Source: Bacillota bacterium
Lineage (GTDB): Bacteria; Bacillota; Limnochordia; Darwinibacteriales; Darwinibacteriaceae
DNA: 36,514 bases
Assembly (NCBI GenBank): GCA_012521295.1
Contig: JAAYMS010000157.1
Coordinates: forward strand, 1-36,514
Reading direction: 5' to 3'
In this document: positions 4,745-22,199 of the stretch, in pieces
Position numbering within the stretch: the first letter of the stretch is position 1
Layout of the letters: every line of letters begins with the position of its first letter
Notes under the pieces: generated by a model
The model's input: the letters and a program-made list of their open reading frames with translations, nothing else
Database searches by the model: none
What the model was told of the DNA's origin: nothing
Program-made: the position numbers and the translations under genes

Positions 4745-7468
4745 CTAGAAGTTGTACGTAAAGGACAGGGTGTAGTAACCAGGAGGTGTGCTGCGAGTCA
4801 GGATAGCGTTTTCGTCGCTGTTGAGCGTAGCTTTACCGTAGCCGAGAGCTAGACTGCCGTTATCTGAAAACTTGTAAGTCGCCTTCAGATGAACGTTGTG
4901 ATCCCAATTGCCCGTCGAGGTCTTCTTTGATAGGCCATACTCACCCAAGAGTGTCAGCTTGGCAATGCCCGTGTAGGTTAGGCGCAGCATATAGCCTGGA
5001 ACCTTCAGGTGCTTGCCGCTCTCGTGGGTCACAATGGTTGTGATCTGGCCGTTCAGGCCTTCAATCAACTTGGCTTTGAGATGAGCGATCAGTTTGCTCT
5101 CTTCGAGTTTATCATATTTGCCTGTATCAAAGTTCTTGGCCCATTTCTGCTCGAACACAGTGTTCAGTGTGACGTCAGATATGATGTTCCAGTCAGCGTA
5201 TACTTTGCCGAACCAGTTCTTGTACGGATACTCTTCATTGTGGTTGTACCACTGGTTGAAGTAGAATCCGCCAGACAGAACATCCTGAATGATGTTGAAG
5301 TTGCCCTGAACATAATAGGTGCCGTAGCCATCGTTGTTATGATCGCTGCGGTCTGTCCAGAGGCCTACTGGTGCGTGGGTAATTCCAGCTTCGAAGTTCT
5401 GGTACGAAGCCTTGGCAAACAGCCCAAGGCCATCTCTCTTGCCTCCGCTGTATGCTGCCTGGCCAGTTACCTTGATATCAAAGGGCAGGGCGGCCGTTAC
5501 AGCTCCACTTACTACATATGGTTGTACCGGGCCATCATCATCTTCATCTGCTGCGCCAGCTTTCTTAATGAATTCTGTGGCAGCGAGGAGCTGTGCCTCC
5601 ACTCCTTCCACGACAGGTACAGGCATCTTTACCGAACCGGCTACCAGAGTGCTGTCCCGGCTCTCGAGTGGAGTGGAGAGCAGCGCATGGGCGGAGCCTT
5701 CGAATACAGGGACACGTACATCTACGCCAGCAGCCTTATCCTTGTAGTAACTGGAGCCTTTGATGATTCCCATCGGATCGCCGAGGTCTGCTCCAGTGCC
5801 ATTCATAAAGATGCGTACACTAGCGTTTTCTACCCGGCCTTTGGCTTCGATTAGGCCAAGATTGAACGAATCCTGAGTCGTCTTGGCTTCCATGACGGCA
5901 GTCCAATCATCGCTGAGGTCATAGGTCAGCTTGATGTCCGCGCCGTAGGCGATTCCGGTTTCCCAAGAGGTATCGGGTTCAGGCATGGGCAGGAGAACGA
6001 TATTGCGGACATTGAAGTCGCCGCCACCCTGGAAGACCAATGCGTTAATCACATCCAAACCGAACTCCACAGCGGTCAGATCAATATCAACAGTTACCCA
6101 GCCATCATCGGTAGAGATCCACTGGCTCCACAGTTCTTTCCAATCCCAGTCTTCGGGCTGGATGATAAACTGTACAACGGTACTCTCGGGAACACTGACT
6201 TCAAATCGTATACCCGTATATCCAGTTAGGTCTAGTGTCCCAGCGGTTGTGTTTGTTCCGAGCTCAAAATGTTTATACGTAACACCCTCGCTGTAGCGAA
6301 GCCTGACCTCATTGTTCCCGAACTCCAAAGTTCCGTTGGCTGGATCATTCATCTTCCAATCGCCCTCTTTGAAGGCTATGGGGGAGTCACCAGTAATCTC
6401 GATCTTCTCGAGTGTTATGTCCACATACGCCTTACCTGAGAGACGCACACGTGCTGGGCCACCAGCAGCGGACGACGCATCTGCCCATGGTGTAGGATAG
6501 ATATTGCGCAGCGACCAATCGCCGCCAGCGGTCTGGAAGCAGAGCGCATTGATATACGACAGATCGTAACCTGTCAGATCAACTTCGATCATGGTCCAGT
6601 CGTCACTGGGTTCTAAATCCTGCCGATGGACTACCTGCCATGCCCAGTCTTTCAGCTGGATGGCCAGCTCTAGTGTGGTAGGTTCAGATACTTTCGCTTC
6701 AAACCGAATGCCAGTGTAACCGGAAAGGTTTACTACCCCAGTGGTGTTTGCACCCATCTGAAGCAGTTTCCAGCCAGTATAGTCTGTGACGTGGACGGTG
6801 TTTTCTTCGAATGTCAGCTTGCCATCGCCCACTCCCATTGCCCAGTCACCGGGGCGGAAAGCGATTGGTGAAGAGCCTCTTGGTGTTTCCTCTTGCACCG
6901 GGGCACCTTCGCCGCCCAGGCGGATGTTGTCAAAGTAAACTGAGCCTTCGGGCATGCCTTCCTCAGTCGGATAGACCAGAATTCCCCAACCCAGCAGGTT
7001 GGCAAGCGGTGGAGTCATGCTGTGTTCCCAGTTGGTTTCGGCACCCTTCCAAGTAGCTTCGGTGAGCGAGAACGTTACGTCAAGCTGTTCACCGGCTGGG
7101 ACGAGCTGTGTTGCTGATTCGTACCAGTCCCAGTTGGGCCCTGTCTGCACATAAATCGCAATCTGAACAGGTACACCGAGTGGGTTGTAAAAATCAAACA
7201 TAAAGGTATCATATCCGGTCCAGTCGGTTTCTCCACGCCAGGACACAAAGCCTTTGCGGTCGGTAGAAATGGCCCGGTGCACCGCACGGGCGGAACGTTC
7301 ACCCTGCGAAGCCCAGTCGGTGCTGTGCACAACATAGCGGAAAGCCTCTTCTCCAGCGAGCGGCTGCTCAGCTTCGAAGTCTACTAGGGTTCTCCCTTGT
7401 GCCGCGGCATATGCGGTGGAAAAGACCAAAGCTAACACCAACAACAACACGATTCGATTGATGCGCAT
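4745..7468 (-). CDS. Outer-membrane-type beta-barrel protein with three N-terminal carbohydrate-binding-like modules
   Basis: A 907-residue secreted protein. Residues 1-24 are a cleavable signal peptide (hydrophobic core, cut near AYAAAQ). Residues about 28-188 form one beta-sandwich-like module ending SVYFDNIRLGG. Residues about 200-362 and 363-496 are two clearly homologous modules, each starting SPIAF..GDW and containing LxGYTGIRFE and a late INAL.FQ. From about 504 to the end the sequence changes to alternating polar/apolar strands separated by loops and finishes YYTLSFTYNF, the pattern of outer-membrane beta-barrels with a terminal Phe. I place the start at ATG 7468, with AAGGGGAGG 6 nt upstream, rather than at an in-frame ATG 33 nt earlier. 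I infer a glycan-binding porin or surface protein; no named family is recognised. No SLH domain is seen. Confidence 0.75.
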   Translation of the reverse strand: MRINRIVLLLVLALVFSTAYAAAQGRTLVDFEAEQPLAGEEAFRYVVHSTDWASQGERSARAVHRAISTDRKGFVSWRGETDWTGYDTFMFDFYNPLGVPVQIAIYVQTGPNWDWYESATQLVPAGEQLDVTFSLTEATWKGAETNWEHSMTPPLANLLGWGILVYPTEEGMPEGSVYFDNIRLGGEGAPVQEETPRGSSPIAFRPGDWAMGVGDGKLTFEENTVHVTDYTGWKLLQMGANTTGVVNLSGYTGIRFEAKVSEPTTLELAIQLKDWAWQVVHRQDLEPSDDWTMIEVDLTGYDLSYINALCFQTAGGDWSLRNIYPTPWADASSAAGGPARVRLSGKAYVDITLEKIEITGDSPIAFKEGDWKMNDPANGTLEFGNNEVRLRYSEGVTYKHFELGTNTTAGTLDLTGYTGIRFEVSVPESTVVQFIIQPEDWDWKELWSQWISTDDGWVTVDIDLTAVEFGLDVINALVFQGGGDFNVRNIVLLPMPEPDTSWETGIAYGADIKLTYDLSDDWTAVMEAKTTQDSFNLGLIEAKGRVENASVRIFMNGTGADLGDPMGIIKGSSYYKDKAAGVDVRVPVFEGSAHALLSTPLESRDSTLVAGSVKMPVPVVEGVEAQLLAATEFIKKAGAADEDDDGPVQPYVVSGAVTAALPFDIKVTGQAAYSGGKRDGLGLFAKASYQNFEAGITHAPVGLWTDRSDHNNDGYGTYYVQGNFNIIQDVLSGGFYFNQWYNHNEEYPYKNWFGKVYADWNIISDVTLNTVFEQKWAKNFDTGKYDKLEESKLIAHLKAKLIEGLNGQITTIVTHESGKHLKVPGYMLRLTYTGIAKLTLLGEYGLSKKTSTGNWDHNVHLKATYKFSDNGSLALGYGKATLNSDENAILTRSTPPGYYTLSFTYNF
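5979..6870 (-). repeat. Two tandem homologous modules within the porin-like protein
   Basis: Protein residues about 200-362 and 363-496 share an order of motifs: SPIAFRPGDW against SPIAFKEGDW, ANTTGVVNLSGYTGIRFE against NTTAGTLDLTGYTGIRFE, IQLKDWAWQ against IQPEDWDWK, VDLTGYDLSYINAL against IDLTAVEFGLDVINAL, and a final LRNI or VRNI. This indicates internal duplication at protein level. The DNA copies have diverged. Confidence 0.8.
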
Positions 7469-7474
7469 GCCTAA

Positions 7475-7483
7475 CCTCCCCTT
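7475..7483 (-). promoter_or_regulatory. Ribosome binding site fixing the porin start
   Basis: On the minus strand AAGGGGAGG is followed after 6 nt by ATG at 7468-7466. The signal peptide starts at that ATG with basic residues MRINR, which decides against the upstream ATG at 7501. Confidence 0.85.
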
Positions 7484-7501
7484 GTTTAATGGTTTAAACA
7501 A
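7482..7501 (-). promoter_or_regulatory. Palindromic operator candidate at the porin transcription start
   Basis: An 8-bp perfect inverted repeat, TTGTTTAA (7482-7489) and TTAAACAA (7494-7501), has a 4-bp centre. It overlaps the expected transcription start of the minus-strand gene. It looks like a LacI-type repressor site, but the cognate regulator is not identified. Confidence 0.5.
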
Positions 7502-7556: not shown

Positions 7557-7630
7557 CTATTAACTGATTCTTGCTGGAAGTCTAAGGCATGATTATGAGA
7601 AGATTAAGGGTGGAAAGGAAGTGGTCTGCT

Positions 7631-8923
7631 ATGATGCAGGATTGGTTTAAGCAGGCGAAGCTAGGCATCTTTATCCATTGGGGAATCTATGCAGTCAAGG
7701 GTGTCGGCGAATCATGGTCATTCTATCATGGTTCGATTTCTTATGAAGACTACATGGCCCAGTGTGAAGGCTTTACTGCCAAGAACTACGATCCCGAGGC
7801 ATGGGCTGAGCTTTTTAAACGGGCAGGCGCACGCTATGCCGTGCTCACAACCAAACATCATGATGGCGTCGCCCTCTGGGATACGAAGCAAAACGATCTC
7901 AGCGTGGTTAAGAAAACACCCGCAGGCAGGGACTTGATCAAGCCCTATGTTGAGGCTCTGCACAAGAATGACCTGAAGGTAGGCCTTTACTACTCGCACC
8001 TTGATTGGTCCCATCCTGATTATGCTACGGTCTATAGGCCTGACGAGCGCGAGAAGCAGGATACTCTTCAGAAAAACCGCTTTACCCATCCATCGGGGCC
8101 CGAAGATCCAGAGGCATGGGAGCGGTTTGTCAAGTTCCATCGTGCACAGTTGGAGGAATTGCTAACTAATTTCGGCCCGGTGGACCTCTTGTGGTTTGAT
8201 GGTGACTGGGAGCGCTCTTCTGAGCAGTGGCGGTTCCCTGAGATGCGCCGTTGGCTCGATGAGAATTATCCTAATACCATCCTAAACTCCCGCATGTGGG
8301 GCTTAGGTGACTATGCCACACCAGAGCAGGGCATTCCGGTTATTCCTCCTAAGGGCCCGTGGGAGTACTGCGTAACTATGAACAATTCCTGGGGTTATCA
8401 GCCGCGGGATATTTACTATAAATCACCTGAGATGATTATCTGGATGTTCTGTGAAACCATCGGCTTAGGCGGGAACATGCTCTTGGATATTGGCCCAATG
8501 GAAGACGGCACTATTCCGCCGGAAGAGGTTGAACGCCTAGAAAAATTGGGTCAGTTTATCAGCGGAAACGAAGAGGCCATCTACCCAACAACGGCTGGGC
8601 TTCCGCGCGGCCACTTCTACGGCCCAACCACTTTAGCTCAAGACAGGAGCACCATTTACCTGTTCCAGTTCGGCAAGCCACAAGGGGAAATCCCTGTGAA
8701 GGGTATCCGCAACAAGGTGAAGCGGGTCAGTGTACTTAAGTCCGGTGCAGAACTAACGCATAAGAAACTCGGCGGAGCTCCTTGGCTCAACATCCCTGGT
8801 ATCTTGTGGATCGATCTTCCGGAGGAACTCTGCGAAGCGCCAGCTACAGTCATCAAACTTGAGCTAGAAGGTGAACTCGACCTATATCGTGAACAAGGCG
8901 CCGTAATTACCGACAATGAGTAA
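7631..8923 (+). CDS. GH29 family alpha-L-fucosidase, cytoplasmic
   Basis: About 430 residues form a GH29 TIM-barrel hydrolase removing alpha-L-fucose with retention of configuration. The family signatures are present: WFKQAKLGIFIHWGIYAV at the N-terminus, TTKHHDG at residues 73-79, and VDLLWFDGDWE with the probable nucleophile Asp190. There is no signal peptide, so it should act on imported oligosaccharides. Start choice: GGAAAGGAAG lies 10-19 nt before ATG 7631, and homologues begin near WF..AK; ATG 7589 would add 14 basic residues and also has a GGAAG upstream, so it remains possible. It is transcribed divergently from the porin-like gene. Two other GH29 genes lie at the far end of the window and are not close copies of this one. 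Confidence 0.9.
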   Translation: MMQDWFKQAKLGIFIHWGIYAVKGVGESWSFYHGSISYEDYMAQCEGFTAKNYDPEAWAELFKRAGARYAVLTTKHHDGVALWDTKQNDLSVVKKTPAGRDLIKPYVEALHKNDLKVGLYYSHLDWSHPDYATVYRPDEREKQDTLQKNRFTHPSGPEDPEAWERFVKFHRAQLEELLTNFGPVDLLWFDGDWERSSEQWRFPEMRRWLDENYPNTILNSRMWGLGDYATPEQGIPVIPPKGPWEYCVTMNNSWGYQPRDIYYKSPEMIIWMFCETIGLGGNMLLDIGPMEDGTIPPEEVERLEKLGQFISGNEEAIYPTTAGLPRGHFYGPTTLAQDRSTIYLFQFGKPQGEIPVKGIRNKVKRVSVLKSGAELTHKKLGGAPWLNIPGILWIDLPEELCEAPATVIKLELEGELDLYREQGAVITDNE

Positions 8924-9068: not shown

Positions 9069-10109
9069 TTATTTGGCTTGAAGTGCTTTATAGAGCGTAT
9101 CAAGCAGGGTATGTGTCTCGTCGCAGCTGTATTCCCAGAACATGATCCCTAAAAGGCCTGCTTCTTTTAGGTAAGCACACTTGGCCGCCATAGATTCGGG
9201 ATCATCGTAAGTAATAAAGGTTGAACCATCAAACAGCCACGGTGCTTTGGCGACATCATCCCAGTAGCGAACGAAACCGTTTTTGTTGATGTAGTTGGCT
9301 GCTAGGTCTGTATAGACAGGCCCGTACCCGCCGTTCGCTGGGCTCATCTGATACATACCGTTGTTTACATTGGGTACATCTTTCCACATCCGTGAGTAGA
9401 ATGCAGCTCCAATAACCAGCTTTTCCTTCGGTACCCCGGCTTCAGTGAAAATCCTTACGGTATCTACGACACTGCTGCGATTGAGGTCTCCTACTGGGGT
9501 ATACAGGTTGGAGTGATGGCCAGTAGTATTCTGGAATCCACCCCGCATGTCATAGGTCATGAGCTGCACCCAATCTAGGTATTTCTGGGCTTTATCCATT
9601 TCGGTACCTTCGACAAAGTATTGCCCGGCACCGGCTGCGATTGTGAGATAGTAGTGGCGGCCATCTTTCTGACCCTGCTCATCAAGGGCATTGCGGAGTT
9701 CTTCTAAAAGCAGGGTAAAGGTGTATTTATCCTCAGGGCTAGCACCAATTCCTGCCTGGCCATAGGTGGGATATTCCCAGTCAATATCGATACCGTCCAA
9801 CTTGCGGGCCCGCAGGATTTCTACACTGGTCTGGGCGAATTTCCGGCGTCCTTCAGCAGTAGATGCAGCTTCTGAAAAACCACCCGCACTCCAGCCTCCT
9901 ACCGAAAGGAGGATTTCTAGCTGAGGATTATATTCCCGCAGTTTGGGGAGGAAATCCAAGTTTTGGGTGTTTTCTACGGTGACTGCATCATTCTTCACAT
10001 GGCCAAAGGCAATGTTGATATGAGTCATTTTTCGAGCATCTTCGGGTGTGACCGTCGGCAGTGCCCGTCCGTCTACATACCCGATGAGAAGATGTTTTGT
10101 GTCTGACAA
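9069..10109 (-). CDS. GH18 family chitinase-like glycoside hydrolase, cytoplasmic
   Basis: About 346 residues form a GH18 TIM barrel cutting beta-1,4 linkages next to GlcNAc, as chitinases and some endo-beta-N-acetylglucosaminidases do. The catalytic motif DGIDIDWEYP is complete at residues 105-114 (proton donor Glu112). SVGGW precedes it, and MTYDMRGGF and GIMFWEYSCDE follow, as in chitinase-type members. No signal peptide or binding module is present, so it probably acts on imported oligosaccharides such as chitobiose-core fragments. I prefer a TTG start at 10109 because GAAAGGGTG (10124-10116) sits 6 nt upstream and the fold begins KHLLIGYVDG; the ATG at 10130 has no ribosome site. It is divergent from the CBM9-like gene. 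Confidence 0.88.
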   Translation of the reverse strand: MSDTKHLLIGYVDGRALPTVTPEDARKMTHINIAFGHVKNDAVTVENTQNLDFLPKLREYNPQLEILLSVGGWSAGGFSEAASTAEGRRKFAQTSVEILRARKLDGIDIDWEYPTYGQAGIGASPEDKYTFTLLLEELRNALDEQGQKDGRHYYLTIAAGAGQYFVEGTEMDKAQKYLDWVQLMTYDMRGGFQNTTGHHSNLYTPVGDLNRSSVVDTVRIFTEAGVPKEKLVIGAAFYSRMWKDVPNVNNGMYQMSPANGGYGPVYTDLAANYINKNGFVRYWDDVAKAPWLFDGSTFITYDDPESMAAKCAYLKEAGLLGIMFWEYSCDETHTLLDTLYKALQAK

Positions 10110-10115
10110 AATCAG

Positions 10116-10124
10116 CACCCTTTC
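10116..10124 (-). promoter_or_regulatory. Ribosome binding site supporting a TTG start of the GH18 gene
   Basis: On the minus strand GAAAGGGTG precedes TTG 10109 by 6 nt, while the sequence before ATG 10130 is pyrimidine-rich and offers no site. Confidence 0.6.
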
Positions 10125-10195
10125 TAGCATAGATTCATGGAGTTATTCGGGAGTAAGTTAGTGAATCCTTTTTATTTTGAAGGGGAGGTAAGTAG

Positions 10196-11233
10196 ATGTC
10201 AGCATATCGGAGATGGGGAGTGGTTGAAGAACCCCGGGGAGATTTCAACCCCCGCCACTATATCGCCCAGAGGGCGAAGGGCCCCCTCGAGTTAGATGGC
10301 AGGTTGGATAAAGAGTTCTGGGAACACGCTCCCTGGAGCGAAGACTTCGTCGATATTGAAGGCGATGTGCGCCCGAAACCAGCCAAACGTACTCGAGTGA
10401 AAATGCTCTGGGACGATGAATATCTCTACATTGGTGCTTACTTAGAGGAAGACCAAATCTGGGCAACTCTTACTGAACGTGATTCGGTGATATTCTACGA
10501 CAATGACTTCGAAGTATTCATCGACCCTGATGGAGACACTCATCACTACTATGAATTTGAAATGAACGCTCTCAATACTGTGTGGGATCTGCTGCTCCCC
10601 AAACCTTACCGCGATGGCGGGCCGCCGATCAATGGTTGGGATATCAGCGGGCTCAAGACTGCAGTTCATATTGATGGGGAGCTAAACAACCCCAATGCTG
10701 ATAACAAAGGTTGGAGCCTCGAGATTGCCATGCCTTGGAAGATTCTTCGAGAATGCGCCCCAGAAGGCCGCCCACCTAAAGTGGGAGATATTTGGCGCAT
10801 CAACTTCTCAAGGGTTGAGTGGCAGGTCAAGGTGGAAAATAGCAAGTATGTCAAAGTGATCAACCCCGAAACAGGCCGCCCATATTCAGAAGATAACTGG
10901 GTCTGGTCACCACAGGGGATTATCAATATGCATTATCCTGAAATGTGGGGTTTTTTAGTCTTTGCTGACGGCCCGTATGAGTTTACCTTGAGCAAAGATG
11001 AATTGGTTAAGTGGGAACTTCGCCGGCTGTACTACCGCCAGCGAGCCTATTATACAGCTAACGGCAGGTTCACCAGTGACTTTTCCCTGCTCAAGGGCGA
11101 TGATGAGTGGACTATTGATCCGAAAATTGAAGTAACCACAAGCTTGTTCCAAGCCTCTGTGCTTTCTGAAGATGGTACCTATACCTGGAATATCCGTGAG
11201 GACGGGCTGATCTGGAGGGAGGAAGTGAAGTGA
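10196..11233 (+). CDS. CBM9-like carbohydrate-binding protein
   Basis: The 345-residue protein matches the pattern of carbohydrate-binding family 9-like proteins: GPLELDGRLDKEFWEHAPW near residue 30, VKMLWDDEYLYIGAYLEE near 70, DNDFEVFIDPDGDTHHYYEFEMN near 100, and GWSLEIAMPWKIL near 170. These are the beta-strands of the CBM9/DOMON-type sandwich. No catalytic residues are recognisable and no signal peptide is present, which is unusual for a binding module. A helical tail (VKWELRRLYYRQRAYY) follows after residue 270. AAGGGGAGG lies 7 nt before ATG 10196. The stop overlaps the next start as GTGA, so it is translationally coupled to the transglutaminase-fold gene. It may hold a glycan or glycopeptide for its neighbours (inference). 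Confidence 0.82.
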   Translation: MSAYRRWGVVEEPRGDFNPRHYIAQRAKGPLELDGRLDKEFWEHAPWSEDFVDIEGDVRPKPAKRTRVKMLWDDEYLYIGAYLEEDQIWATLTERDSVIFYDNDFEVFIDPDGDTHHYYEFEMNALNTVWDLLLPKPYRDGGPPINGWDISGLKTAVHIDGELNNPNADNKGWSLEIAMPWKILRECAPEGRPPKVGDIWRINFSRVEWQVKVENSKYVKVINPETGRPYSEDNWVWSPQGIINMHYPEMWGFLVFADGPYEFTLSKDELVKWELRRLYYRQRAYYTANGRFTSDFSLLKGDDEWTIDPKIEVTTSLFQASVLSEDGTYTWNIREDGLIWREEVK

Positions 11234-13839
11234 ATCCATTTGGACTGAGTGATGTTAGCCTAAAGGAAATCGAACGCAACTTTCAGCTGAAAAAAGATCT
11301 GGCCAAGAAGCGCAGCACTCAGATGTTTGATGTTTTCGCTGATTTAACTGATCTTGAGGAAATCACAGCTCTAAAATTCCTCTATGCTTATATGCCATTA
11401 ACAGACTTAGCCGACTATACTGGTGAGCTTTTCCTCAGCCATGTACGCCATGCGCTGAAGGCACGTGAGATGACGCCCTGGGGCAAAAAAGTGTCTGGCA
11501 GTCATTTTCTCCATTTTGTACTGCCTTACCGGATTACCAATGAGACAATCGAAGACTACCGCCCTTATTTTATGGAAGAGCTCTTCGATCGGGTTAAGGG
11601 CCTTTCCATGGCAGATGCTATCTTAGAGATAAACCATTGGACTCATGAAAAGGCTACTTATATAGCTTCGGACCCTCGGACAGCTTCGCCTCTGACGCTG
11701 GTCCGCAATGCAAAAGGCCGCTGTGGTGAAGAGTCTGCGCTGCTTGTTACCGCTCTGCGTAGCTTGTGCATTCCAGCACGGCAGTGCTATACGCCTCGTT
11801 GGGCTCACACCGACAGTAACCATGCCTGGGTAGAGGCCTGGGCCGATGGTGAATGGTACTTCCTTGGTGCCTGCGAACCAGAGCCAAGGCTCAATATGGG
11901 TTGGTTCTCTGGGCCTGCTCGCCGGGCGATGCTCGTGCACACCCGCATCCCAGGTAACATTTACGACGGGCCTGAACTGCAAGTACAGGTACGCGATGAT
12001 CATACAGAGTTAAACCTCTTAAGCAATTATGCTCCTACCCGCGACCTCACCGTAGTGGTTCGCGATGAACAGGGAGATGTAGTAGAAGGAGCTTATGTGG
12101 ACTTTCAGGTCTTCAACTTCGGAATGTTTTCCACCATTGTGCAGCGTATCAGCGATGCGCAGGGTGAAGCAAAGATCACAACCGGCCACGGCGATTTGAT
12201 GATCTTCGCTTTCAATCAAGATGGTTGGGGATACAAATATGTGCCTGCGGATAGTGGCCCTATGGTCGAAGTACGTCTGTCGAAAGAGCAGCCGGAAGAA
12301 GCCTTTGAACTGACCATGACTCCTCCGCCTGAGCTTCCCGATAAAGAAGTCCAGGTCACCGAGGACGAGCGCGAGGCCAACAACGCACGTCTCAAGTACG
12401 AAGATGAAGTCCGCACAGCGTACGAAGACACCTTTGTCAGCGAAGCAGAAGCCCGCGAACTTGCTCGCGAGCTCGGCCTCGACGAAGACGGCACCGTTGA
12501 TGTACTGATAAAAGCTCGGGGTAACAGCCACCGCATTGCCCAATTCCTCAGAGATGCATCTCCGAAGTACGGAGAATGGGCACTGCGTATCCTGCAGGTT
12601 GTATCTGCCAAAGACCTGGGTGATACCACAGCCGAGGTGTTAAGCGATCATCTAGAGCACAGTATGCCCGAAAGAGGGCGCTTCTCTGATGATGATTTTG
12701 CCGCCTATGTTCTGTGCCCCCGGGTTTCACTGGAAGTAATGCGTCCGTACCGGGCCTTCTTCCGCTCCGAGTTCAGTGCTGAGCAGCAGGCTGAGTTCAA
12801 AGCTAACCCTGCCAAGTTAGTCGCTTGGATTAAGGAGAACATCACAGAGGTTGCGGAAGGCCTGTTCAGGGGATTCCCGACTCCTCGTGGTATCTACGAG
12901 CTTGGCTTAGCCGACACTCATGCCCAAGAGATTCTCTTTGTGGCTCTGGCCCGCAGCTTCGGTATCCCGGCTCGGCTTGATCCGATGGATAGAAAGCCGC
13001 AGTACCTTACTGAAGAAGGCTGGGTAGATGCCAAAATCGGCAGTGGTGCCATTGATTCGCAACCTGGCGAAGAGGCACAGGCTCAGGCCGCTATGGTACG
13101 GTTCCGCCGACGGTCAGCCGAAGCGGGTAAACTTGAGTACTATCGCAACTTCACTGTGTCTCGGCTGGAAGGTAATGTGTTCCATACACTACGCTTCCGT
13201 GATCTTGACGAAGCCAGTTTCGATGAAGAGGACTTCAGCGATACCCTGCAAGTAAGGCCAGGTTACTACTGGCTGACAACTGGTAACAGACTTGCAGATG
13301 GTTCGGTACTTGTCCGGGTGCAGCCCTTCCATGTCAGATCAAACGAAACCACAACAGTGGAGCTTGTACTCCGTACTGATGAAAAGGAACAGGCCGTGCT
13401 TGGGACTATGACGGAAGCTGTGTTCCAAGGTTTCGATGATCAGGAAGTTTCGGTTGACACACAGGCGTGGGAGAATGGCATGTTGTTGGCCTGGATCGAA
13501 CCTGATCGGGAACCAACCAAGCACCTCATTCGTGAACTTGGGGAGTTAAAAACCGACTACGAGAAGAAAGCTTTGTCAGTTGTACTGGCATTGGGCGAAG
13601 ATAAGCTCACCGATTCGTTTGACCCGAATTCTTATACAAACCTGCCGCAAGGCGCACTGTTCTGCTTAGACAAAGATTACGCCGCTCTCCAGAATGTAGA
13701 GAAGGCTTTGGGACATGAATTCCCCCGCAGCTACCCAATTGTGCTGGCGGTTAATGCACAAGGAGAAGTCGTTTATTCGTCTACAGGATATCAGATCGGT
13801 ACTGGTGTGCAGGTCCTAGAACATCTCAGAAAGGAATGA
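11230..13839 (+). CDS. Large multidomain transglutaminase-fold protein with peptide:N-glycanase-like core motif
   Basis: 869 residues, no signal peptide. Residues about 150-240 carry a transglutaminase/cysteine-protease-fold core: GRCGEES (Cys165), SNHAWVEAW (His198), WYFLGACEPEP, then GWFSGPARRAMLV. The order GRCGE - HxWxE - ACE - GW resembles the eukaryotic peptide:N-glycanase core as I remember it, but the third catalytic Asp of that core (DACE) is Gly213 here. Residues about 255-350 look like an Ig-like beta domain. Residues about 555-605 repeat a degenerate transglutaminase-like stretch without the Cys (LADTHAQEILFVALARSFG). Residues 740-869 end in a thioredoxin-like segment (YPIVLAVNAQGEVVYSSTGY) without CxxC. 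Start GTG 11230 has GGAGGGAGG 7 nt upstream. It sits between the CBM9-like gene and GH38. De-N-glycosylation or glycopeptide processing is inference. Confidence 0.8.
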   Translation: MNPFGLSDVSLKEIERNFQLKKDLAKKRSTQMFDVFADLTDLEEITALKFLYAYMPLTDLADYTGELFLSHVRHALKAREMTPWGKKVSGSHFLHFVLPYRITNETIEDYRPYFMEELFDRVKGLSMADAILEINHWTHEKATYIASDPRTASPLTLVRNAKGRCGEESALLVTALRSLCIPARQCYTPRWAHTDSNHAWVEAWADGEWYFLGACEPEPRLNMGWFSGPARRAMLVHTRIPGNIYDGPELQVQVRDDHTELNLLSNYAPTRDLTVVVRDEQGDVVEGAYVDFQVFNFGMFSTIVQRISDAQGEAKITTGHGDLMIFAFNQDGWGYKYVPADSGPMVEVRLSKEQPEEAFELTMTPPPELPDKEVQVTEDEREANNARLKYEDEVRTAYEDTFVSEAEARELARELGLDEDGTVDVLIKARGNSHRIAQFLRDASPKYGEWALRILQVVSAKDLGDTTAEVLSDHLEHSMPERGRFSDDDFAAYVLCPRVSLEVMRPYRAFFRSEFSAEQQAEFKANPAKLVAWIKENITEVAEGLFRGFPTPRGIYELGLADTHAQEILFVALARSFGIPARLDPMDRKPQYLTEEGWVDAKIGSGAIDSQPGEEAQAQAAMVRFRRRSAEAGKLEYYRNFTVSRLEGNVFHTLRFRDLDEASFDEEDFSDTLQVRPGYYWLTTGNRLADGSVLVRVQPFHVRSNETTTVELVLRTDEKEQAVLGTMTEAVFQGFDDQEVSVDTQAWENGMLLAWIEPDREPTKHLIRELGELKTDYEKKALSVVLALGEDKLTDSFDPNSYTNLPQGALFCLDKDYAALQNVEKALGHEFPRSYPIVLAVNAQGEVVYSSTGYQIGTGVQVLEHLRKE

Positions 13840-13843
13840 GTCG

Positions 13844-16800
13844 ATGTACTTCACAGTCGAAAAAGCTGATCGATATATCGTTGATCTGCGGCCGTATATC
13901 TACGAAGACAAGGCTAAGATAGAAAGCTTTAAGCACTGGCCCGAGAACATTCAGGGCGCACATACGCCCGAGTTTGATGACAGTCAGTGGGAAGATTTCA
14001 AGGTCGGCGGCGCCTGGGGCGGCCGTGACCAGATTCATTGGTTTAGAACGACCGTGACCATTCCGGAGGAATGGCGTGATGCTAAGGTTGCTTTGTATCT
14101 GGCAGTTGGCGCCGGTGAGACTGGCGGCCTTAGGGGAGCAGAGTCGCTGGCATACATCAACGGCCTGCCGGCCCAGGGGCTAGACGTAAATCACGCAGAA
14201 ATTCTGCTCCTGCCCGAATGGATGGAAGCCGGTGAGTTCCATCTAGCAATTAAAGCTTTCAGCGGCTTACAGAATGAGACTAGATGGTTCTATAAGGCAG
14301 AACTGGTGAAGATTAACGAAGCGGCGGAGGATTTCTACTTCCGTGCCGCAACCGTTCTAGATACCATCCGGATTCTGCCAGAAAGTGACTACGTCCGCAC
14401 CTCCCTCTTGAACCTCTTGAACAGCGCCATTAACACAACTGACTTCCGCCGCCCGCGTTCGCCTGAGTTTTATGCATCAATTGCAAAGGCGAATGAGGAG
14501 CTCAAACAAGGGCTGCGGGAGCTCAAAGATGAGTCTGGTAAGCAGCCGGTTATTACCGCTGTAGGCCATTCTCATATTGACTTGGCTTGGTGGTGGCAGA
14601 TCAAACATACCCGGGAAAAGGGAAGCCGCACGTTCTCTACTGTGAACCATCTGATGGAGCAGTATCCTGAGTATCATTTTCTGGCCAGCCAACCCCAGCT
14701 GTATGAGTTCATCAAGCAGGACTATCCCGAGATCTTCGAGCGGATAAAGCAGCGTGTGAAAGAAGGCAAGTGGGAAGTTACCGGCGGTATGTGGGTTGAG
14801 CCCGACTGCAACGTTCCGTCAGGCGAATCGTTGGTCCGCCAGTTCTTGATGGGCCAGAAGTTCATGGAGGAAGAATTCGGTCTGCGGTCTACCGTTCTCT
14901 GGCTGCCTGACGTTTTTGGATATTCTTGGGCAATGCCTCAGATTATCAAGAAGAGCGGCCACAAGTATTTCATGACCACCAAGATCAGCTGGAGCCAGTA
15001 TAACCGGCCGGCCTATGACACCTTTATGTGGCGGGGCATCGATGGTACTGAAGTCTTGACTCACTTCATTACTACGACTGACTCTCCTAAGCCGCGGTTC
15101 TACACGTACAATGGTATGCTGAACCCTGCTAGTGCTGTCCGCAGCTGGGAGCATTATCAGCAGAAGGATATCAACGATGAACTGCTCTTGGCGTACGGCT
15201 TTGGCGATGGAGGCGGCGGCCCCACCAAGGAAATGATTGAAACAGGCAAGAAGATGCAGGAAATCCCTGGCCTGCCTGAGATTCGCTTCGGCAAGGCTGA
15301 GCCGTTCTTTGCCCGCCTCGAAGAGAAAGTGAAAGACAATCCGAAGCTGCCTATAGTCGATGGTGAGCTCTATCTCGAGTATCATCGCGGCACATATACA
15401 TCTCAGGCTCGCACCAAACGGAACAACCGCCTGAGTGAAATCATGCTTCATGACGTGGAGCTGTTTAACGCTCTCGCCATGAATGAAGTACCGGGCCACG
15501 AGTACCCACAGGATGAAATCAACGAAAACTGGAAGACCGTGCTCCGCAACCAGTTCCATGATATCCTGCCCGGTTCATCTATCGCTGAGGTATATGAAGA
15601 CGCAGATGCGGAATATGCTCAAGTGCTTGGCTCTAGCTGGGAACATCTGCAGACAGCTCTCAACGCTCTAGCAAGCAGGGTCGTGATGGATGGCGAGAAA
15701 ATAGTTGTGTTCAACTCTCTATCTTGGAAGCGCAGCGGAACTGCTATTCTGCCTTGGAGCGATACGTTGGAGGGCAAGGTGTTTGTCGACGATGAAGGTA
15801 AGCAGCTTGAGGCACGCATTGTCGAAACCAGCTCTGGTAAGGTTGTGGAAATTGAAGTACCCAACATCCCAAGCTTTGGGTACAAAGCCTTCCGCATCCA
15901 GAATAAGGATGAAGTGGAGCAGATAGCCGAGCCCACATCTACCAAGACTGTGCGCTTGGATGGACGGACCATTGAGTCGCCATACTACCGCATTGTGCTG
16001 AACGAATCTGGGCAGATCACTTCACTGTTCGATAAAGAAGCTGATCGTGAGGTTCTCCCCAAAGGTATGGCAGCTAACGTGATTGAGGCCTTCGAAGATA
16101 AACCGATGTACTACGATGCCTGGGACATTGACATTTACTATAGAGAAAAGCCTTACTCTGTGCAGCATCCAGTGGAGTGGAATGTACTGGAAAACGGGCC
16201 CAGCCGTGTTGTAATCGCCTTTGAGTGGCCGTTCCTTCAGTCCACCATCAAGCAGAAAATGATCGTCTATGCCGATCGCCGGAGAATCGACTTCAAGACA
16301 GAAATCGATTGGAACGAACATCAAGTTCTGCTCAAAGCCGCATTCCCCGTGGATGTACGCAGTACAAAGGCCACCTACGAAATCCAGTTCGGTAACGTAG
16401 AACGTCCTACACACTGGAATACCAGCTGGGATTATGCTAAGTTCGAGACCTGCGCTCAGAAATGGGTGGACTTGTCGCAGCGTGACTATGGCGTCAGCCT
16501 TCTCAATGACTGCAAGTACGGGCATGACGTGAAAGATAACATCATGCGTATCACTCTGCTCAAGTCTGGTATTGAGCCGGATCCAAACGCAGATCACGGA
16601 CATCATGAGTTCACTTACAGTCTCCTGCCACACAGTGGTGACTGGTACGAGGCCAATACCACACAAGAGGCCTATGAGCTGAACTATCCTCTGCGGGCAG
16701 TTTACGCCGACAGTTCAGCTGGTTCTCTGCCTGAGGAGCACAGCTTCATTAAGGTCAAAGGTGAGGGCGTCATTTTGGAGACTGTGAAGAAGAGTGAAAA

Positions 16801-16996
16801 GGATTCGAGCCTGGTGCTGCGCTTCTACGAGTACGGCAACCGCAGTTCTACCGTGGAAGTCGAGCTGGCTGCAGATCTGTCTTCTGTCGAGGAATGCAAC
16901 CTCATGGAAGAAGAGTGCGAGGCTGTGCCTTTCACAGGACGGACATTTACCTTTGATATCGATCCCTACGAGATCAAGACGTTCAAGATTAGGTGA
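13844..16996 (+). CDS. GH38 family alpha-mannosidase, cytoplasmic
   Basis: A 1050-residue retaining, metal-dependent alpha-mannosidase. The GH38 N-terminal domain starts near residue 235 with AVGHSHIDLAWWW, whose His244 and Asp246 are the expected Zn ligands. The nucleophile is Asp356 in WLPDVFGYSWAMPQI, and NQFHDILPGSSI supplies the late family histidine. The remaining ~450 residues are the mid domain and the C-terminal beta domains. An N-terminal beta domain (1-200) is typical of the bacterial/long form. No signal peptide is present. ATG 13844 follows the previous stop by 4 bp, with AGAAAGGAA overlapping that gene's end. Likely role: stripping alpha-mannose from imported oligosaccharides or N-glycan fragments. 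No frameshift or missing catalytic residue is seen. Confidence 0.94.
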   Translation: MYFTVEKADRYIVDLRPYIYEDKAKIESFKHWPENIQGAHTPEFDDSQWEDFKVGGAWGGRDQIHWFRTTVTIPEEWRDAKVALYLAVGAGETGGLRGAESLAYINGLPAQGLDVNHAEILLLPEWMEAGEFHLAIKAFSGLQNETRWFYKAELVKINEAAEDFYFRAATVLDTIRILPESDYVRTSLLNLLNSAINTTDFRRPRSPEFYASIAKANEELKQGLRELKDESGKQPVITAVGHSHIDLAWWWQIKHTREKGSRTFSTVNHLMEQYPEYHFLASQPQLYEFIKQDYPEIFERIKQRVKEGKWEVTGGMWVEPDCNVPSGESLVRQFLMGQKFMEEEFGLRSTVLWLPDVFGYSWAMPQIIKKSGHKYFMTTKISWSQYNRPAYDTFMWRGIDGTEVLTHFITTTDSPKPRFYTYNGMLNPASAVRSWEHYQQKDINDELLLAYGFGDGGGGPTKEMIETGKKMQEIPGLPEIRFGKAEPFFARLEEKVKDNPKLPIVDGELYLEYHRGTYTSQARTKRNNRLSEIMLHDVELFNALAMNEVPGHEYPQDEINENWKTVLRNQFHDILPGSSIAEVYEDADAEYAQVLGSSWEHLQTALNALASRVVMDGEKIVVFNSLSWKRSGTAILPWSDTLEGKVFVDDEGKQLEARIVETSSGKVVEIEVPNIPSFGYKAFRIQNKDEVEQIAEPTSTKTVRLDGRTIESPYYRIVLNESGQITSLFDKEADREVLPKGMAANVIEAFEDKPMYYDAWDIDIYYREKPYSVQHPVEWNVLENGPSRVVIAFEWPFLQSTIKQKMIVYADRRRIDFKTEIDWNEHQVLLKAAFPVDVRSTKATYEIQFGNVERPTHWNTSWDYAKFETCAQKWVDLSQRDYGVSLLNDCKYGHDVKDNIMRITLLKSGIEPDPNADHGHHEFTYSLLPHSGDWYEANTTQEAYELNYPLRAVYADSSAGSLPEEHSFIKVKGEGVILETVKKSEKDSSLVLRFYEYGNRSSTVEVELAADLSSVEECNLMEEECEAVPFTGRTFTFDIDPYEIKTFKIR

Positions 16997-17126: not shown

Positions 17127-18266
17127 TTGTTGGCGACTAGAGAGACGGAATTTACTGATCGTAAGATGCTGTACAGACAAACCAAGGATTACATCCTAGA
17201 CAAGATTCAGCAGGGTATATACGGTCCGGGGGAGCTCATTCCCTCGGAACGCGAACTTGCTGAACAGCTAAACATCAGCAGATACACAGTACGCAGAGCA
17301 ATTCAAGAATTGGTGGCCGAAGGGATCCTACACCGCGTTCAGGGTAGTGGTACCTATGTGACCGAACCCACCAACAATGTGCAGCGGAGTGACACATTGG
17401 GGATTGTGATGCCTTTCTCAGATGCCGAGGTGGAAATGCTTCTCTTGAACGGCATGCAGAAAGCACTGCGTGACACCCGTTTTTCCATGACAATTCGTGG
17501 AACGGGCAACAGCGCTGTCCGCGAGTGGGATGAAGTGCAGCGTCTCAAAGAAGAAGGCGTCAGCGGCCTGATTATTATGCCTAGTGAGGAAGAAGATGGC
17601 GGCCGGAGCGCGGTGGCCCTGAAGAGAGAAGGCTTCCCCTTTGTGTTAATCGACCGCAAGGTCCCTGGCTGCGAGACTAACTGCGTCATGTCTGACAACA
17701 TCCAAGGTGGATACCTGAGTGCAAAGTATCTGTACGATCTGGGCCACCGGAAAATCGCATTCGTAAAGCATCGCAGTGACAATACCAGCAGTGCGAAGGA
17801 TCGTTTTCTTGGCTACCGTAAGGCATTCCAAGAAACAGGACTCGGTGACGGTACCCTCTTTGCCTTTGATTATCGTAATGGTGAGGAGGAACTCCAGCAG
17901 TTCCTCCTTTCTGGAGAATATACTGCTTTTATCGCTGTAAACGGCTATGTGGCGGTTGATATTATCAAGGCATGCCGAGCGACTAACTTGGTAATTCCAG
18001 ATGATCTGTCACTTATCAGTTTCGATGATCCCAGTATTCTGCATCATCTGGAGGTTTCGCTGACTACAGTCATTCAACACACTGAAATGATTGGTTATCG
18101 AGCGGTGCGCTTGCTTATCGAGGAGATCAGCAATCAAGAGAAATACGGCAGGGATTATATTAGGAGTTATACACAATGCTACTACCCTGTACGTTTGATC
18201 GAGCGTGAGTCGTGCCGCAGGCTGGATTCAACGGGAATGGAGGTGCAGCATGGGCAGAACCACTAA
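17127..18266 (+). CDS. AraR-type chimeric regulator: GntR winged helix plus LacI-type effector domain
   Basis: 379 residues. Residues about 14-80 form a GntR-type winged helix (IPSERELAEQLNISRYTVRR, then GILHRVQGSGTYV). Residues about 89-365 form a LacI/periplasmic-binding-protein fold (DTLGIVMPFSD, GVSGLIIMPSEEED, LGHRKIAFV, LSLISFDDPSILHHL, LTTVIQHTEMIGYRAV). The same domain combination occurs in Bacillus AraR, a sugar-responsive repressor. The start is TTG at 17127 (or the adjacent TTG 17130) after AAGAGGTGA. The gene overlaps the following binding-protein gene by 17 nt, so it is the first cistron of the transporter operon and probably controls it in response to an imported sugar. The effector cannot be read from sequence. 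Confidence 0.92.
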   Translation: MLATRETEFTDRKMLYRQTKDYILDKIQQGIYGPGELIPSERELAEQLNISRYTVRRAIQELVAEGILHRVQGSGTYVTEPTNNVQRSDTLGIVMPFSDAEVEMLLLNGMQKALRDTRFSMTIRGTGNSAVREWDEVQRLKEEGVSGLIIMPSEEEDGGRSAVALKREGFPFVLIDRKVPGCETNCVMSDNIQGGYLSAKYLYDLGHRKIAFVKHRSDNTSSAKDRFLGYRKAFQETGLGDGTLFAFDYRNGEEELQQFLLSGEYTAFIAVNGYVAVDIIKACRATNLVIPDDLSLISFDDPSILHHLEVSLTTVIQHTEMIGYRAVRLLIEEISNQEKYGRDYIRSYTQCYYPVRLIERESCRRLDSTGMEVQHGQNH

Positions 18267-21222
18267 AATACTACTTGGAACACTATTGCTGTTGATTTTG
18301 CCCTGGGTTGCTTCGGCTTATGCCGCTGATGACGTTAATTTCGCAGATGATATCGCTAGCTTTGAGGCAGTGATTGATTACGGGACTTATCTTGAATCCT
18401 ATCTTGCCCAGGGTGCTGGCCGCCCAAATCGCCAGGTCTACGTGTTTGGAGACCGGTATTCTTCGACCAACATGGATGTGGAGTTGGTCTATTCTGAGGA
18501 GTACAACGGCTATGCTGTATACACGGGCGAGTGGGGCTACATTGAATGGGATGTTTACGTATCAGAACCAGGCCTGTACAACATAGAGCTCGCTTATTAC
18601 CCTGTTGAGGGTAGAGGCACTGCTATTGAGAGATCAATCGAAATAAACGGCGAGCCTCCATTTGAAGGGGCGAGCTATCTTTCTTTCTCTCGGGTTTGGG
18701 GTAGTGCAGAAGATATCCGCATGGATAACCAAGGTAATGAACTGCGTCCTGCTCAAAAGGAGTATCCGATGTGGCGGACCGCAGTTTTGTCTGATTCGAT
18801 GGGCAGCTATGCTGAGCCCTATCTGTTTTATTTCAACGAGGGAAGAAATACTATCCGTTTGGTTTCTCGCAGGGAACCGATGCTCATCCATCACCTACGT
18901 CTTTTCCAGGTGGAGATGCCCCCAACCTACGCGGAGCTTGTAGAACAGTACAAGCAGCGGGGTTATAAAGAAGCTCAAGGGGTCTTCATTAAGCTGCAGG
19001 AACGGGATTCTACTTACCGATCCGAATCTACTTTGGCACCTACGTTTGACCATGGTGACCCGACTTTGGAACCATATGATCCAGTTTTGATGCGCCTCAA
19101 CGCCATTGGCGGGGACAGCTGGAACCAGAGTGGGCAGTGGGTGCGCTGGGACTTTGAGGTACCCCAGTCTGGCCTTTACAAGATCGGCATCAAAGCTAAG
19201 CAGAATCTCTACCGCGGTTCTTTCAGTAACCGCCGTATCTACATTGACGACAAGGTCCTCTTTGAAGAGATGTCTGCGGTGCGTTTCCCGTACTCGTCTG
19301 TTTATGACATGTACGTTCTAGGTGGAGATGAAGACCCATACCTAGTCTACCTAGAAGAAGGCTCCCACAGCATCACCATGGAAGTCGTTTTGGGCGACAT
19401 GGTCGATGTGATCCGGACTGTCGAGCAAAGCGTGTATGATCTTAACTCGATTTACCGTCAGATTGTGATGATTACATCGCCGACGCCGGACCCAATGCGG
19501 ACTTACGAATTACCTAAGCGCATTCCTGGGCTCTTGGACAACATGCTCGTTCAGGCCGACATTGTAGAAGAGGTTGCCGACGCTCTAGAAGCATATACGG
19601 GTCAGAAGGGCGGAGCCACTGTTGTACTCAGAGACCTTTCGCGTCAGCTCCGCACGTTGGTCCAAGATCCCGACTCGATTCCACGGCGTCTGTCGGAGTT
19701 TCGAGACAATCTCGGTTCGTTGGGGACTTGGCTTTTAGACGTGCGCAAACAGCCTTTGGTTGTTGACTACTTGGTGGTCGCTTCACCTGAACAGGAAATG
19801 CCCAATGCATCAGCTTCTTTCGGTCAGCGGATGGGTCATGAAGTAAGAGCACTTGCATCCTCTTATACTCACGACTACACAAAGGTGGGCGACGTTTACG
19901 AAGGTGACGCCGAACCACTAACCGTTTGGATCGGCTGGGGCCGTGACCAAGCGCAGATATTGAAACGGCTGATTGAAAATGACTTTACACCAAAGACCGG
20001 AATTCCGGTAAACCTAGAACTGGTCAGCATGGGAGTACTCCTGCCGGCAACGCTGGCAGGAAGAGGCCCTGACGTGGCAATGGGTGTAAGTACTGCCCAA
20101 CCCATGAACTTTGCATTCCGTGGTGGGGTAGTTGACCTGAGTACAATGCCTGGCTTTGACGAAGTGAAAGAGCGGTTTATGCACAGCGCAATCGTACCGT
20201 TCATGTTCCGAGACAGCGTATATGCTCTTCCAGACCAGCAATCGTTCTTGATGCTGTTCTATCGCGCTGACATTCTGAAAGAGCTGGGGCTTGAAATCCC
20301 TCAAACCTGGGACGACGTGCTGGATATCATTCCTGTACTGCAGAAGCGCAATATGGACTTCGGCTTGCCGTTCTCGGTGCCAGCAAAAGCCATGAGTTCC
20401 TCCATCGGTGACGTCAGCTCGACCATGGGAAGTCTGTCGTCCAGTGGTGGGGTGCTGAACCTCTTAATGTTCATGTACCAGAAGGATCAGGAGCTGTTTA
20501 TTGAAGACGGTATTGCTACCAACCTTGATCATGAGGCAGCTGTAGAAGCCTTTACGCTCTGGACCGAGCTGTACGAACTGTACAAACTGCCGCTCGATTA
20601 CAACGCATCTAACCGTTTCCGGATGGGCGATATGCCTCTGGTTATTGCAAGTTACGGCTTATACAACGAGCTGCAGGTATTCGCACCTGAACTGCGGGGC
20701 AAATGGGGCTTCACATTGGTGCCTGGTACTCTCAAAGAAGATGGTACCATCGACCGTTCTGCACCAGCAGCTGTGGGCCAGACCGGCAGCATGATCATGG
20801 CAGCCTCGGACAAGGTTGAAGAGGGCTGGGAGTTCCTCAAATGGTGGACCAGTACTGAAACTCAGATTGAGTTTGGACGCCAGATTGAAAGTACGCTTGG
20901 CGTTGCTGGTCGCTATGCAACTGCTAATGTAGAGGCACTGGCTGGCCTACCATGGTCGGTAGAAGAGTATCAGAAGCTGATGGCCCAGTGGCAATGGGTG
21001 CGCGGTGTTCCTGAAGTACCAGGTGGCTATATGATCGGACGCTACCTAGACAACGCTTTCAGACAGGTTGTTTACAACAACAAACCCGCACGGGATATTC
21101 TGGTCGACTATAATCGGTTGATCAACGAGGAAATCCAACGCAAGCGGGAAGAGTTCAGCTTACCCACTGAATTCGACGATCTACCTGAAGAATACCGCAA
21201 GCTCTACTGGGTTGAGCAGTGA
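18250..21222 (+). CDS. Multidomain extracellular solute-binding protein with two N-terminal CBM-like modules
   Basis: 990 residues, more than twice the usual size of a sugar-binding protein. Residues 1-25 are a cleavable signal peptide without a lipobox Cys. Two beta-sandwich, CBM6/35-like modules follow (about 60-220 and 255-380), marked by WGYIEWDVYVSEPGLYNIEL and QWVRWDFEVPQSGLYKIGI. A helical linker covers 420-510. The C-terminal ~430 residues are a family 1 binding-protein domain: LLPATLAGRGPDVAMG, PFMFRDSVYALPDQQSFLML and GLEIPQTWDDVLDIIPVLQ. ATG 18250 is preceded by GGAGGTG; a frame opening at 18205 would lack a signal peptide. I infer that the extra modules hold a polymer or long oligosaccharide for the two following permeases. 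Confidence 0.87.
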   Translation: MGRTTKILLGTLLLLILPWVASAYAADDVNFADDIASFEAVIDYGTYLESYLAQGAGRPNRQVYVFGDRYSSTNMDVELVYSEEYNGYAVYTGEWGYIEWDVYVSEPGLYNIELAYYPVEGRGTAIERSIEINGEPPFEGASYLSFSRVWGSAEDIRMDNQGNELRPAQKEYPMWRTAVLSDSMGSYAEPYLFYFNEGRNTIRLVSRREPMLIHHLRLFQVEMPPTYAELVEQYKQRGYKEAQGVFIKLQERDSTYRSESTLAPTFDHGDPTLEPYDPVLMRLNAIGGDSWNQSGQWVRWDFEVPQSGLYKIGIKAKQNLYRGSFSNRRIYIDDKVLFEEMSAVRFPYSSVYDMYVLGGDEDPYLVYLEEGSHSITMEVVLGDMVDVIRTVEQSVYDLNSIYRQIVMITSPTPDPMRTYELPKRIPGLLDNMLVQADIVEEVADALEAYTGQKGGATVVLRDLSRQLRTLVQDPDSIPRRLSEFRDNLGSLGTWLLDVRKQPLVVDYLVVASPEQEMPNASASFGQRMGHEVRALASSYTHDYTKVGDVYEGDAEPLTVWIGWGRDQAQILKRLIENDFTPKTGIPVNLELVSMGVLLPATLAGRGPDVAMGVSTAQPMNFAFRGGVVDLSTMPGFDEVKERFMHSAIVPFMFRDSVYALPDQQSFLMLFYRADILKELGLEIPQTWDDVLDIIPVLQKRNMDFGLPFSVPAKAMSSSIGDVSSTMGSLSSSGGVLNLLMFMYQKDQELFIEDGIATNLDHEAAVEAFTLWTELYELYKLPLDYNASNRFRMGDMPLVIASYGLYNELQVFAPELRGKWGFTLVPGTLKEDGTIDRSAPAAVGQTGSMIMAASDKVEEGWEFLKWWTSTETQIEFGRQIESTLGVAGRYATANVEALAGLPWSVEEYQKLMAQWQWVRGVPEVPGGYMIGRYLDNAFRQVVYNNKPARDILVDYNRLINEEIQRKREEFSLPTEFDDLPEEYRKLYWVEQ

Positions 21223-21233
21223 GGGGGGATATA

Positions 21234-22187
21234 ATGGCGTCTATGCCTGAAAGACAAGTGAGCACTCAGGCCGTTTATCGGCCTGAGAGCAAGCTTGGTC
21301 AATTATGGAAGCGCATCAAGCAAAACAAAGTTTCATACTTCTTCGTTGCACCGTACGGAATTCTGTTTTTCATGTTTACCGTTTTGCCTGTTGCGGTGGC
21401 GATTTACTTGAGTTTCACCCACTACAACATGCTGCAGCCTCCCCGGTGGGTGGGCTGGGAAAACTACCTGCGGCTCCTGCTCGCAGACGATATTTTCCTG
21501 ATAGCGGTCAAGAATACCTTTGTGTTTGCAGTGGTAACGGGGCCTTTGAGCTACCTGGCCAGCTTCGTGTTTGCTTGGTTGATCAATGAGTTGAAGCCAA
21601 GAATTAGGGCTTTCTTGACTCTGCTTCTATATGCTCCGTCTATCTCCGGAAGCTTGTACTTGATCTGGACCATCATGTTTAGTGGAGACTCTTATGGTTT
21701 CATTAACTCCCGTCTCCTTTACCTGGGTATCGTTAAGGAGCCTATACAGTTCCTGACAGACCCAAAGTGGATGATGTCCGTTGTGATCATCGTAGTATTG
21801 TGGATGAGTTTGGGAACCAGTTTCTTAGCTTTCATTGCAGGCCTTCAGGGTATCGACTCGAGCTTGTATGAAGCAGCCGCCGTGGACGGAATCAGAAACC
21901 GCTGGCAGGAACTGTTCTTCATCACGCTGCCTCAAATGAGGGGCTATCTGATGTTCGGTGCCATTATGGCCATTACTAGTTCCTTTGCTGCTGCGGAGCA
22001 GATCATCCCACTGGTCGGTTTCCCCAGTACGGATTACGCAGGACACACAATCGTGGCACACTTGATCGACTATGGTAATGTCCGGTTTGAAATGGGTATG
22101 GCTTCGGCTATTGCGGTTATCTTGTTCTTTACCATGGTCATATCACAGAGGCTTGTGCAGCGCCTGCTTGATAAGATCGGGACCTGA
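21234..22187 (+). CDS. Sugar ABC transporter permease (UgpA/LacF-type), pair 1
   Basis: 317 residues with an N-terminal cytoplasmic stretch and about six transmembrane helices, the first at PYGILFFMFTVLPVAVAIYL. The EAA loop is LYEAAAVDGIRNRWQELFFI followed by TLPQMRG. It belongs to the binding-protein-dependent carbohydrate permeases (MalF/UgpA side). ATG 21234 follows GAGGGGGG by 5-6 nt; the GTG at 21219 overlaps the previous stop and is less well placed. It pairs with the next gene. No ATPase is encoded nearby, so a shared MsmX/UgpC-like ATPase elsewhere is assumed. Confidence 0.93.
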   Translation: MASMPERQVSTQAVYRPESKLGQLWKRIKQNKVSYFFVAPYGILFFMFTVLPVAVAIYLSFTHYNMLQPPRWVGWENYLRLLLADDIFLIAVKNTFVFAVVTGPLSYLASFVFAWLINELKPRIRAFLTLLLYAPSISGSLYLIWTIMFSGDSYGFINSRLLYLGIVKEPIQFLTDPKWMMSVVIIVVLWMSLGTSFLAFIAGLQGIDSSLYEAAAVDGIRNRWQELFFITLPQMRGYLMFGAIMAITSSFAAAEQIIPLVGFPSTDYAGHTIVAHLIDYGNVRFEMGMASAIAVILFFTMVISQRLVQRLLDKIGT

Positions 22188-22199
22188 GGAGGGACAGTC

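Follow-up and report, generated by a model that had tools for sequence, protein, structure and literature searches.

The 36,514-nucleotide window analyzed here (contig JAAYMS010000157.1 of assembly GCA_012521295.1, from a Bacillota bacterium of the Darwinibacteriaceae) carries a gene for a transglutaminase-fold protein, designated TG, that we tentatively assign to the breakdown of N-glycans or glycopeptides, as a hydrolase that attacks an amide with a cysteine thiol, the most likely bond being that between N-acetylglucosamine and asparagine (GlcNAc-Asn). The protein has kept the active site cysteine and histidine and its gene recurs beside genes for the degradation of glycoprotein sugars, which makes it probable that TG cleaves an amide in the same pathway. 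The association of the TG gene with N-glycan-degrading genes very probably holds beyond the window and across phyla, thiol amide hydrolysis is likely, and GlcNAc-Asn is the target that we would cautiously favor over peptide bonds.

Active site and domain organization

The reading frame proposed in a first-pass annotation of this DNA, and the residues named there, Cys165, His198, Gly213, Glu216 and a Gly-Trp pair, were all found where it had placed them (Table 1). The transglutaminase fold with a cysteine and a histidine was borne out by a Pfam match of Transglut_core (PF01841) to residues 126-211 of the 869-residue protein (75.2 bits, cut-off 23, E = 6.1e-21) and by the conservation of Cys165 and His198 in 84 of 84 members of the family alignment, the score and the conservation together ruling out a chance motif match. 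The motifs are GRCGE, which contains Cys165, HAWVE, which contains His198, Trp209 followed by Gly213-Ala-Cys-Glu216, and Gly224-Trp225. Glu167, His193, Glu202, Gly213, Cys215, Glu216 and Trp225 were likewise each invariant (84/84), and the mean pairwise identity was 0.72 in the catalytic domain as compared with 0.30-0.48 in other regions of the protein. Gly213 occupies the position of the triad aspartate and, since all 84 aligned members have glycine there, the replacement is a family trait rather than a quirk of the copy in the window. The invariant residues and the high identity argue for an active site that is under strong selection and manages without the triad aspartate. These sequence comparisons point to an active enzyme, and we infer thiol catalysis that dispenses with that residue.

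A profile comparison (hhalign) of residues 1-368 with residues 369-716 gave a probability of 98.4% and E = 6e-14; as judged from its sequence, TG is a tandem duplication with one active and one degenerate transglutaminase copy. Glu761, Pro762 and His765 in the thioredoxin-like domain are invariant across the family and form an E-P-x-x-H motif in place of CxxC. The structure model built from 84 sequences was rated reliable (predicted local distance difference test, pLDDT, 90.8; predicted template modeling score, pTM, 0.91) and replaced an earlier model from 8 sequences (pLDDT 68).

Relation to peptide:N-glycanase

TG had initially been described as peptide:N-glycanase (PNGase)-like, with a proposal to compare it with PNGase by hidden Markov models. 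The only PDB chains matched by the domain profile below E = 0.1 were 3isr (E = 2.8e-6) and PNGases (E = 0.0024-0.019; mouse 0.0024, yeast 0.017). The comparison thus found the PNGases, as the next solved structures after 3isr, and to that extent the likeness stood, although 3isr ranked first. When the alignments were read directly, the RCGE and CE positions of the TG domain matched PNGase and not 3isr, while its longer loop before the histidine and its IPAR motif matched bacterial transglutaminases. The best 50 PDB rows of a whole-length fold search contained 3isr and animal transglutaminases and no PNGase; matches to the thioredoxin-like domain prevailed in this search, and it had no power to rank the subgroups of transglutaminases.

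No CXXC zinc motif occurs anywhere in the 869-residue sequence, and Pfam gave no match in TG to PUB, PAW, PNGase F (PF09112/PF09113) or glycosylasparaginase (PF01112). TG was not filed as a PNGase because the aligned aspartate is glycine and CXXC, PUB and PAW are missing. Membership in the Png1/NGLY1 family, the part of the description that failed, was rejected on these grounds and on the higher score of 3isr.

Distribution and gene neighborhood

The genome from which the window derives has one TG copy, and 8 of 61 near genomes carry the gene. At least 579 relatives were confirmed when one genome per species was scanned; the 80 of these that were listed are mostly from Bacteroidota, with others from Paenibacillus, Cohnella, Bacillus-type and uncultured Firmicutes and two of Aminicenantes type. 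The occurrence is patchy (2 of 297 genomes in a random phylum sample, 56 of 198 in Bacteroidales), and co-occurrence was tested in the order Bacteroidales, the phylum sample having too few carriers. A full-length member in PLSDB is labeled merely "transglutaminase domain-containing protein", and literature searches found no paper connecting the family with N-glycans.

The glycan link suggested by the first-pass annotation was upheld by an association with N-glycan-degrading genes that crosses phyla. The glycoside hydrolase (GH) genes that it had described as beside TG, GH38, GH29 and GH18, are indeed nearby, and the word is apt, as a gene for a protein resembling carbohydrate-binding module family 9 (CBM9) overlaps the start of TG in the sequence GTGA and GH38 begins 4 nucleotides after its stop. 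The overlap and the short gap suggest that CBM9, TG and GH38 form one transcription unit. The neighbors of TG in Firmicutes include CBM9, GH38, GH18, GH29, a GntR-type regulator and ATP-binding cassette (ABC) importers, and those in Bacteroidota include GH92, CutC, GH29, GH20, GH125, GH31 and major facilitator superfamily transporters. In 8 of 39 Bacteroidota genomes a GH92 gene is found no more than about 10 kb from TG, about 1.2 being expected (P = 2e-5), and when one case at the edge of a fetched stretch was omitted, 7 loci remained (P = 1.6e-4). Among the 198 Bacteroidales genomes, GH92 occurs in 54 of the 56 with TG and in 73 of the 142 without it (Fisher P = 7e-11), and in the family to which the window genome belongs, all 8 genomes with TG have GH38, as against 3 of 15 without it (P = 3e-4). 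CutC (PF03932), which is single-copy in 38 of the 39 Bacteroidota genomes, is near TG in 14 loci where 0.2 would be expected; these loci partly share ancestry, but with 8 independent cases counted P is still about 4e-11.

The N-termini of the Bacteroidota members carry lipoprotein or secretion signals, while the Firmicutes members, including that of the window, have none. The first-pass suggestion of a cytoplasmic protein therefore fits the Firmicutes branch, but not most of the family. The CBM9-like partner and GH38 switch with TG, having export signals in Bacteroidota and none in Firmicutes, and this joint change of compartment supports a shared pathway.

A shorter TG relative in Persicobacter psychrovividus (432 residues, 35% identity over residues 43-233) is encoded in a locus with the order SusD, CutC, PNGase F and TG, followed downstream by GH92 on the opposite strand. 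Both Pfam halves of the PNGase F are matched (E = 1e-54 and 1.5e-50), and a second Persicobacter strain has SusD, CutC, a PNGase F-like gene and TG with an insertion-sequence-like gene in between. The Persicobacter locus ties the shorter TG branch to N-glycans. The P. psychrovividus protein retains the cysteine and histidine and has a glutamate at or adjoining the position of Gly213. A glutamate at or next to this position in the shorter relatives (L089:7728-9026 and L091:9671-11011) may represent an intermediate in the loss of the triad aspartate. The company of CutC in TG loci and in the Persicobacter PNGase F locus also suggests a role for CutC in glycoprotein sugar catabolism.

Other enzymes could cleave the GlcNAc-Asn bond. 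Glycosylasparaginase (PF01112) was not found in the window genome, nor was it seen among TG neighbors in a motif search. PNGase F had no match in the window genome, although 21 other genomes or records were positive in the same search, and none was present in the five other Firmicutes TG carriers tested. This leaves TG as the sole candidate seen for cutting GlcNAc-Asn in the window genome, where the absence of both enzymes is provisional because the assembly is 95% complete and in 186 contigs.

Proposed function

In the Firmicutes, the ABC importer would bring small N-glycans or short glycopeptides into the cytoplasm, where GH29 and GH38 would trim the glycan, the CBM9-like partner belonging to the same set. 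Cys165, activated by His198, would then attack an amide, most likely the GlcNAc-Asn bond of small glycopeptides or glycosyl-asparagine. The glutamate of the CE motif and the tryptophan of the GW motif of Png1 contact chitobiose; their equivalents in TG, Glu216 and Trp225, may sit in the sugar site. GH18 would clear the chitobiose. The same enzyme set would act outside the cytoplasm in Bacteroidota. In the eukaryotic cytosolic route, PNGase acts first and is followed by a GH38 mannosidase, an order of events that the TG gene set recalls. It is conceivable, if rather doubtful, that cleavage of GlcNAc-Asn by a Cys-His center lacking the triad aspartate constitutes a third bacterial route of de-N-glycosylation beside PNGase F and glycosylasparaginase, cytoplasmic in Firmicutes and external in Bacteroidota.

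Several observations weigh against GlcNAc-Asn hydrolysis by TG, 1) the triad aspartate is glycine throughout the aligned family and yeast Png1 requires Cys191, His218 and Asp235 (PMC2791212), 2) the nearest solved sequence to the TG domain is 3isr, an uncharacterized bacterial transglutaminase, 3) Persicobacter and about ten Bacteroidota TG genomes have a strong PNGase F match, so that the GlcNAc-Asn amide may already be served there, 4) the PNGase F adjoining the Persicobacter gene means that the TG branch may perform a different or downstream amide cut, 5) many Bacteroidota TG copies have no adjacent glycosidase and 6) the proximity and co-occurrence statistics ignore phylogeny. The fallback offered by the first-pass annotation, that TG is a relative with altered catalysis that carries out some other amide-bond reaction, may still apply.

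TG might be a peptide amidase or cysteine peptidase that trims the peptide of imported glycopeptides and leaves the sugar-Asn bond to another enzyme. Transglutaminase folds include peptidases, the depositors of 3isr labeled it a putative cysteine protease, and the PNGase F beside the Persicobacter relative would fit a second, different amide reaction, but the motifs of TG (GRCGE, HxWxE, xxCE, GW) are nearer to PNGase than to 3isr (GVCRD, HACFE, no CE), and we regard this role as fairly unlikely while giving it some weight. The substrate might instead be another glycan amide, such as a sugar N-acyl group, the amide of a modified sugar, or a bond in a non-N-glycan (a fucose- or mannose-rich polysaccharide), since none of GH38, GH92, GH29, GH3 and GH18 is restricted to N-glycans, the neighboring GH18 protein resembles chitin enzymes, and the window also has several ABC systems and more GH29-like genes. 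The GH92 and GH125 neighbors and the Persicobacter SusD-PNGase F locus indicate N-glycans, however, which makes such a substrate unlikely.

The loss of the triad aspartate in every aligned member, the degenerate second transglutaminase copy and the thioredoxin-like domain without CxxC would be in keeping with a protein that is not an enzyme at all, but a scaffold of transglutaminase descent, comparable to Rad4/XPC, that binds glycans or glycopeptides; the invariant cysteine and histidine and the fact that the catalytic domain is the most constrained part of the protein render this improbable. Animal transglutaminases were among the fold matches, yet the Firmicutes protein lacks an export signal and is encoded inside a set of genes for sugar import and breakdown, and a true transglutaminase making isopeptide cross-links is highly improbable.

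If the assignment of TG as an amide hydrolase of N-glycan catabolism is correct, it would supply the missing amide-cleaving step in N-glycan-importing Firmicutes, provide a function for a family whose hundreds of members in gut Bacteroidota have no annotation beyond the transglutaminase domain, show how the transglutaminase fold works without the aspartate, and offer a potential new deglycosylation reagent. CutC was named for copper and its function is doubtful; its steady company with TG makes a role in glycoprotein sugar breakdown directly testable.

Other features of the locus

ABC importer gene sets similar to that of the window adjoin the TG gene in UBA4996 and Paenibacillus terrigena. 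The large solute-binding protein has a recognized domain from about residue 584, preceded by a long N-terminal part with no assignment, and a similar gene is found beside TG in other Firmicutes; its listed start overlaps the regulator by 62 nucleotides and may be too early. The CBM9-like partner possibly binds glycan ends. A 918-residue protein (4745-7501, minus strand), in which only a mannanase-type galactose-binding domain was recognized and which has no solved relative, is possibly an unclassified glycoside hydrolase. In Paenibacillus and Cohnella, as in the window, these ABC importers are accompanied by an NHL/TPR/Yip1 membrane protein (23096-25219 in the window) and a DUF5696 protein (25237-27996).

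Table 1. Features of the TG locus; positions refer to the window except for CutC, which lies in the Persicobacter PNGase F locus (L089)
Feature	Position	Strand	Remarks
GH29 alpha-L-fucosidase	7589-8923	+	
GH18 protein	9069-10130	-	353 aa, no signal; best same-length solved match 6inx, N-acetylglucosaminidase
CBM9-like protein	10196-11233	+	345 aa; recurrent partner of TG
TG gene	11230-13839	+	GTG start, 869 aa, no signal peptide
Catalytic transglutaminase domain	11581-11964	+	residues 118-245
Codon of Cys165	11722-11724	+	
Codon of His198	11821-11823	+	
Codon of Gly213	11866-11868	+	
Codon of Glu216	11875-11877	+	
Codon of Trp225	11902-11904	+	
Ig-like domain	12031-12324	+	residues 268-365; homologous to B. 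fragilis fragment 3e8v
Degenerate second helical, transglutaminase and beta unit	12361-13374	+	residues 378-715; catalytic Cys and His lost
Thioredoxin-like domain	13462-13836	+	residues 745-869; no CxxC
GH38 alpha-mannosidase	13844-16996	+	nearest solved relative of Ams1 type
GntR-type regulator	17127-18266	+	with sugar-binding domain
ABC importer	18205-23072	+	
Large solute-binding protein of importer	18205-21222	+	
Permease of importer	21219-22187	+	
Permease of importer	22200-23072	+	
CutC (PF03932)	L089:5642-6409		

Comparison with known systems

TG resembles Png1/NGLY1 in its transglutaminase fold, in the motif order GRCGE, HxWxE, CE and GW, in the lack of a signal peptide in the window protein and in the tie to mannosidase-type N-glycan degradation. 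It differs in having glycine for the triad aspartate and a longer loop before the histidine, and in being duplicated, with immunoglobulin (Ig)-like and thioredoxin-like domains. The Cytophaga hutchinsonii protein 3isr is the best solved match at the domain level and was also among the fold matches, but it has an intact aspartate, no GRCGE or CE motif and another domain arrangement, and is itself uncharacterized. The Bacteroides fragilis structure 3e8v, a "possible transglutaminase-family protein", has an Ig-like domain and apparently belongs to the same family (profile E = 2e-29), although it was solved as an Ig-like fragment only and its record reports no function. PNGase F shares the Persicobacter locus with the shorter TG relative and acts on the GlcNAc-Asn amide, but its fold is unrelated and its active site uses acidic residues where TG would use a thiol. 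Glycosylasparaginase, likewise of unrelated fold and not found in the window genome, is a possible functional analog of TG at the GlcNAc-Asn step.

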